A stretch of DNA of 35,812 bases from a virus. The notes beneath the pieces were generated by a model. It was not told the DNA's origin and did no database searches. It was given only the letters and a program-made list of their open reading frames with translations. The position numbers and the translations under genes were made by a program. Where the stretch lies: positions 1-35,812 of the IMG/VR virus record IMGVR_UViG_3300013132_000123; one strand, 5' to 3'. Positions 35,316 to 35,812 of the stretch are shown here, one piece after another (the stretch's first letter is position 1; every line of letters starts with the position of its first letter).

Positions 35316-35342
35316 GACAAACTGACAAAGTGTCAGAATGTT
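35316..35342 (+). repeat. 27-bp dispersed inverted repeat, copy 5 (early leader)
   Basis: GACAAA-CTGAC-AAAGT-GTCAG-AATGTT. The inner arms are exact and the outer arms diverge. It lies in the leader of the early transcript, about 35 bases before the first start codon, and its right arm overlaps an AATGTTC box. Confidence 0.65.
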
Positions 35343-35417
35343 CGGGTTTTGTGGGTGCAATGTTCTTAGAACATTTGAAATTAGAACAATGCAAAAAAGA
35401 AAAATTCCCACTCTCAT

Positions 35418-35446
35418 ATTATAGCATAGGTAGTTTACAAAGTCAA
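35418..35446 (-). promoter_or_regulatory. Strong early sigma70 promoter
   Basis: Read leftward, TTGACT (35446-35441), a 17-base spacer and TATAAT (35423-35418), with TG one base before the -10 box (extended -10). Transcription should start near 35411 and run into the early block through a leader of about 130 bases. GAACATT boxes lie on both sides of it. Confidence 0.85.
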
Positions 35447-35482
35447 GTTAGGAAACAGTTTGCAGGGTGCTGTGTCGGCTGT

Positions 35483-35782
35483 AAGTCATTGATTCTTCGT
35501 GGGGTGTTGTGGGTAATGTACAAATGGGGGTTGCAATGTTCTTGGGGAGAGAGGGAAATTCGAACAAAAGAATGGCTTGTAGACGCCATTGTACCGAAAT
35601 TGTTGTAATGTTCTGAATGTTCTAAAAAAGAGAAGAGAGATTAAGCCTACGCGCGACCCTGTGCATATGTCCCTAATAAACACTTGCGGGGAGCCTCGTT
35701 CTCTCAGAATTTATTTTATTTTGGCGACCCTTGTGTGCCAAAAAGTCCGAACATTAGAACATTGCTGAAAAATCAATGACTT
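35483..35782. repeat. 12-bp inverted repeat flanking part of the control region
   Basis: AAGTCATTGATT at 35483-35494 and its exact complement AATCAATGACTT at 35771-35782 face each other across about 276 bases. Five of the GAACATT boxes and the AT-rich tract lie between them. Confidence 0.5.
35588..35616 (-). promoter_or_regulatory. Possible second leftward promoter among the boxes
   Basis: Read leftward, TTCAGA, an 18-base spacer and TACAAT (35593-35588) form a weaker promoter match, with two AATGTTC boxes overlapping the -35 side. It is about 170 bases upstream of the strong early promoter. Confidence 0.3.
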
Positions 35783-35812
35783 GCGACGGAACAATTACCT
35801 AGAACATTATGT

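Follow-up and report, generated by a model that had tools for sequence, protein, structure and literature searches.

An array of GAACATT boxes as a probable replication origin and early control region in full-size phages

Introduction

Replication origins are known in few phages and in hardly any uncultured ones. The question raised here is what is done by a dense array of seven-base GAACATT boxes lying around the early promoter at one end of a complete virus record of 35,812 bases, which was analysed as a whole (hereafter the window) and which ends only 4 bases after the last box. The initial annotation had offered two readings of this region, a multi-site switch for a phage regulator or an iteron-type replication origin, and the features on which the choice depends are the following.

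35337..35808, no strand: GAACATT box array, candidate replication origin and early control region; nine exact boxes, beyond shuffles, syntenic in relatives
35607..35622, minus strand: box pair, 9 bp apart, at the inner edge of the minus block (35535, 35607, 35616)
35749..35763, plus strand: box pair, 8 bp apart (the modal spacing of 51 non-redundant arrays), at the inner edge of the plus block (35749, 35757, 35802)
35623..35748, no strand: central spacer of 126 bp between outward-facing blocks; 88-130 bp in relatives
35648..35659, plus strand: TACGCGCGACCC element inside the central spacer; spacers of relatives are enriched in TACGC and CGACCCC
35359..35375, no strand: palindrome of two boxes, 17 bp, AATGTTCT-T-AGAACATT, downstream of the early promoter
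35418..35446, minus strand: early promoter TTGACT-N17-TATAAT, of sigma-70 consensus, reading into the early/replication arm
35771..35783, plus strand: IHF-consensus site AATCAATGACTTG, close to the plus box pair
35482..35494, minus strand: second IHF-consensus site AATCAATGACTTA
35363..35424, no strand: AT-rich stretch across the promoter/box region; 60-bp segments of up to 75% A+T, in the top 0.2% of the window

Results

The box array and its conservation

All nine exact copies reported by the initial annotation were located, on the minus strand at 35337, 35359, 35535, 35607 and 35616 and on the plus strand at 35369, 35749, 35757 and 35802, and near-exact boxes accompany them (GAACAAT at 35384 and 35789, plus strand; GTACATT at 35515, minus strand). 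The strands of these copies bear out the described flip of orientation between blocks, and the early promoter does fall within the array, running from 35446 to 35418 on the minus strand; the palindrome of boxes downstream of it is also real, although it measures 17 bp and not 15. Elsewhere in the window the exact box recurs at 30668 (plus strand), as had been noticed, and once more at 30217 (minus strand), which had been missed. The whole-window count of 11 against 5.7 expected is weak by itself. When the 7-mer was counted against shuffled sequence, as the initial annotation had proposed, 5000 shuffles of the 531-bp region 35282-35812 (the region also used for alignment) averaged 0.135 copies and none exceeded 3, against the nine observed, and in shuffled whole windows any 7-mer reached at most 4 copies per 480 bp, against nine for GAACATT. 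The signal is one of clustering and not of total number in the window, and among the matches listed for the records compared the array is the sole dense cluster of the box. A search against Rfam gave no match, for which reason an RNA element was dropped as a reading, and no direct DNA relative of 34600-35812 was found among cultured phages.

Loss of the boxes in related phages had been named beforehand as one of the outcomes that would speak against the initial readings, and the comparison showed instead that they are conserved. Across four near relatives (L011-L014), 43 columns of the 531-bp region vary and none of the 63 box columns does (P 0.003). The promoter hexamers and the two IHF sites are invariant as well. 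A scan of viral contigs with the motif GAACATTNGAACATT returned 119 stretches, a set that is thus motif-selected, and 66 of the 119 scanned contigs with one box pair hold 4-12 boxes per 600 bp. Most of these arrays, which belong to related aquatic phages, occupy the same syntenic position, with the early/replication arm to one side and the terminase arm to the other, and most are surrounded by a common syntenic set of proteins. An unbiased sample was obtained by picking phages on primase-helicase homology alone, and every long contig of this sample that covers the site carries the array (5/5; G019, G020, G021, G023 and G024), with 6-10 GAACATT boxes about 1.5-3.5 kb upstream of terL. The box itself drifts at the same site, to TAACATT in L171, L204 and others and to TGGAACA(A) in G010. 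In another viral contig (L028 6840-6944) 11 boxes all point in one direction, mostly in strict 8-bp steps. Several contigs end in or near the array (the window itself at 35812; L009, L012, L033, L073, L095 and L128), perhaps because assembly breaks there; many others pass through it unbroken.

Position in the genome

The early arm encodes a MoxR ATPase, a VWA protein, a DUF3150-like protein, PolA, nucleases, a DEAD-type helicase, a conserved 288-aa protein, a small HTH protein and a PrimPol-DUF927 helicase. What follows past the window's end can be seen in near relatives, namely two paralogous genes of about 210 aa, a probable terS, terL and portal, and these late genes are transcribed away from the array. 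Because early and late arms flank it, the array marks the point at which the two arms of the genome diverge. The terminase genes are linked to the array equally strongly in these phages, which is a point against reading it as an origin. The paralogous pair (L011 4727-6229), which immediately borders the array on its late side, belongs to no family that was recognised, and in other phages its place is taken by different genes of comparable size. The end of the late arm is occupied by a single 2905-aa ORF (window 6229-14946), kept in all array genomes, whose position resembles that of the 'large polyvalent protein' of Pag-Yong1.

Shared architecture

Fifty-eight non-redundant arrays were compared (51 for the spacing mode), and their iteron consensus is (G)GAACATTA. 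Boxes on the same strand are most often 8 bp apart, then 9 and 10, and their spacing follows a period of 10.4-10.5 bp, with a p-value that is only indicative as the pairs are non-independent. A minus block, a step of 85-145 bp and a plus block succeed one another in 39 of the 58, with boxes facing outward and spacers of 88-130 bp, so that two iteron sets flank a central region in the manner of SaPI/PICI origins. IHF-consensus sites number 47 over the 58 arrays, where 3.4 would be expected, and lie repeatedly 9 bp past a box pair; of strict sigma-70 promoters there are 22, with 1.6 expected. DnaA boxes (TTATNCACA) are absent from all 58, with 3.1 expected, and a DnaA-dependent origin was rejected on this ground. 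The spacer shows no AT excess overall (GC 0.407, flanks 0.409); in 20 arrays the part adjoining the minus block reaches 0.66-0.76 A+T and is followed by a GC-rich element. CGACCCC is present in 8 of the 39 spacers, with 0.4 expected, and TACGC is also recurrent there. The GC-skew mapping suggested by the initial annotation did place the cumulative minimum close to the array (0.9-4.6 kb away in 11/11 genomes), but the divergence of the gene arms is a confounder here, since gene direction predicts the same. On the late-arm side of the arrays AACTGGTATC recurs, and AACTGGT(ATC), found in about 30 of the 58 and mostly directed to the late arm, may serve as a late promoter or as an activator element.

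The candidate initiator

Three genes or domains of the early arm bear on which protein may bind the boxes.

15239..18118, minus strand: PrimPol-DUF927 helicase, 959 aa, proposed box-binding initiator; core gene in 13/13 near-complete array genomes
15341..15715, minus strand: winged-helix-like C-terminal domain, aa ~802-926, proposed box binder, with a conserved K-x-R-x-x-K-G-T
18121..18375, minus strand: HTH protein, 84 aa, adjoining the initiator, possible accessory protein or repressor; sister phages that share the box carry an HTH of another type

The helicase matches Pfam DUF927 with an E of 3.5e-29, and eight of the 13 near-complete genomes had been picked without reference to it. Among genome contigs, compared for a clue to the host, its nearest relative (42 percent) is encoded in a Rhodobacteraceae MAG contig, in the examined part of which there is no array. 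The initial annotation had looked to two other proteins as binders. The product of 18121-18375, an HTH_3/HTH_23 protein, has lost ground in this role, for the HTH gene beside the helicase is of its type (c24) in five array genomes and of an excisionase-like type (c57) in eight; the box is constant across both, and therefore neither HTH is likely to define it. The TrmB-like protein of 21715-21921 is confined to the nearest relatives, which makes it an unlikely regulator, and it was discarded as box binder.

A model of the helicase's C-terminal part, built from 61 sequences, reached a mean pLDDT of 86. It is best matched by SCCmec Cch (5dgk, Foldseek E 1.9e-5) and SaPIbov1 Rep (8tch, Z 8.8), and then by the winged helix of TcpK on its oriT boxes (5vfx, Z 7.3-7.4, 90 residues); Z scores of 8-9 are modest, and across both domains the structures superpose with a high rmsd of 7-9 A. 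A winged-helix DNA-binding domain like that of Rep is thus predicted. TcpK binds closely spaced short tandem boxes, of 9 nt, at the oriT of pCW3 (PMC6137059), and its fold resembles the predicted initiator C-terminus, although it is a stand-alone dimeric conjugation protein and not the domain of a helicase.

Comparable layouts in other elements

A cultured phage, Pseudomonas phage Rollin, encodes a homologue of the helicase (31 percent), and its divergence point is marked by an IHF site and two blocks of TTGCATA in inverted orientation, while no homologue of the array phages' TerL is detectable in it. A comparison meant to trace joint change of box and initiator C-terminus in Rollin-like phages brought no such pattern to light, for TTGCATA is not kept in the nearest relatives of Rollin, whose contigs carry other repeats or are without the site. 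Rhizobium phage RHph_TM3_14A possesses the helicase and no array at its divergence point. Both observations count against the origin reading. The TTGCATA boxes of Rollin are adjoined by nine copies of AAAAGGTAG, most of them paired in inverted orientation (L162 1-673), and an Acb2/Tad1-like gene lies at L162 1455-1745. In G033, a remote DUF927 element, the helicase gene is followed immediately on its 3' side by a TAACATT array (L492 2483-2733), which is the SaPI arrangement with respect to a rep-type gene, and neither TerS nor TerL was detected in the contig. In cultured relatives, arrays of different short words were seen near terS/terL, namely in HTVC027P (AAGCTTG, L135 5809-6140), HTVC023P (TAGGAAA, L136 3372-3457), Pag-Yong1 (GTATGAC, L137 7130-7476) and 023Pt_psg01 (TGGCACA, L138 4484-4693).

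Discussion

We consider it reasonably probable that the array is a replication origin fused with an early control region and bound by the C-terminal domain of the PrimPol-DUF927 helicase. Of the two readings offered by the initial annotation, the origin has thus gained the better support and the switch is less favoured. The origin is preferred because of the inverted, helically phased blocks around a spacer, the IHF sites, the GC-skew minimum and the core helicase, whose C-terminal domain models like that of SaPI Rep. In the mechanism that we envisage, two outward-facing blocks of short phased iterons around a spacer of 88-130 bp would be bound by the helicase, whose gene lies in the early arm at a distance of about 17 kb, through its putative C-terminal winged helix, and one hexamer would probably be loaded for each block. 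IHF would bend the DNA in the gap between the blocks or next to them, melting would occur at the spacer or at the AT-rich promoter side, and replication would then start; the same occupancy of boxes may keep the early sigma-70 promoter repressed or set its timing.

The array most likely works like a SaPI/PICI origin, an analogy drawn here for full-size phages. An AT-rich region flanked by two sets of iterons is a constant feature of PICI origins (PMC6092414), and the C-terminal domain of SaPI Rep recognises iteron origins (PMC7581432). Common to both systems are a spacer bordered by two groups of short iterons and a DUF927-type helicase (as in SaPIbov1 Rep and SCCmec Cch), recognised here by sequence, with putative self-loading and a predicted C-terminal DNA-binding domain. 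Unlike those satellites, however, the present phages are full-size, their helicase is fused to a primase, IHF sites and an early promoter are built into the array, the spacer is AT-rich only in part, and the origin candidate is situated at the early/late divergence, far from the helicase gene (35337-35808 versus 15239-18118), a distance that counts against the proposal. Membership of the SaPI type is not claimed because an array directly downstream of a rep-type gene is seen only in the distant G033 and not in the window, and because binding is only proposed.

Looser parallels exist with other replicons. The alpha protein of phage P4 is a fused primase-helicase with a C-terminal origin-binding winged helix, and the type I iterons of P4 ori and crr are many, short and in both orientations. 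The present system may be likened to P4 in its fused enzyme and its many short iterons of both orientations, whereas it differs in having a DUF927 helicase domain and another iteron sequence. Iteron plasmid origins of the RepE/RepA type have iterons of 17-22 bp and DnaA boxes; repeated initiator boxes, and IHF sites in some, are shared with them, but the boxes are of 7-10 bp here and DnaA boxes are lacking. A literature search returned nothing relevant to the box string, and DUF927, phage and iterons together led only to the SCCmec paper.

The strong, conserved early promoter surrounded by boxes, together with the IHF sites and the position of the array where the arms diverge, would also suit a multi-operator switch without an origin, in which a phage regulator (the HTH_3/HTH_23 protein of 18121-18375 or another) and IHF control divergent early and late promoters. 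We regard this as rather unlikely, given that the HTH type varies by clade while GAACATT stays constant, that the TrmB-like candidate is limited to the nearest relatives and that most boxes are placed well upstream of the -35, an odd location for plain repression; a switch keeps some probability, since the boxes flank the early promoter, which an initiator may autoregulate.

A packaging site, pac or cosB-like, at which the small terminase subunit binds the boxes and IHF acts as at lambda cos, is less probable still. It would explain the proximity of terS-terL, 1-3 kb from the array, the IHF sites, the contigs that end close by and the other 7-mer arrays near terS in HTVC023P-type phages. Yet the layout is shared by Rollin without a matching TerL, which argues against packaging, the array of G033 adjoins a DUF927 helicase in a contig where TerS and TerL went undetected, many contigs cross the array unbroken, and the proposed TerS has a variable N-terminus, with no DNA-binding family detected, although the box is fixed. 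There is only a very slim chance that the boxes are sites of a host factor such as alphaproteobacterial LexA (GAAC-N7-GAAC), which would make the region SOS-responsive. GTTCN7GTTC is indeed enriched (32 against 0.9) owing to some boxes 11 bp apart, but of 163 same-strand neighbours at close range (8-13 bp) just 15 have this spacing, conservation extends to the ATT half of the box, which LexA does not require, and the hosts of the array phages appear to differ, judging from the varied contigs. Host LexA boxes were ruled out since the prevailing spacing is 8 bp.

A replication origin fused with an early control region predicts a specific protein-DNA pair that is easily assayed, and a strict 7-mer array of fixed architecture provides a sequence handle for locating origins and for recognising this phage family in metagenomes. 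It also permits shared ancestry of satellite (PICI) and phage replication modules to be tested. More tentatively, and with somewhat less than even confidence, we propose that the two-block iteron origin, hitherto regarded as special to PICI satellites, may in a form merged with IHF sites and an early promoter be standard in a large family of full-size aquatic phages, that a single initiator would couple replication to early transcription in them, and that the origin-initiator module may be ancestral to satellites and phages.
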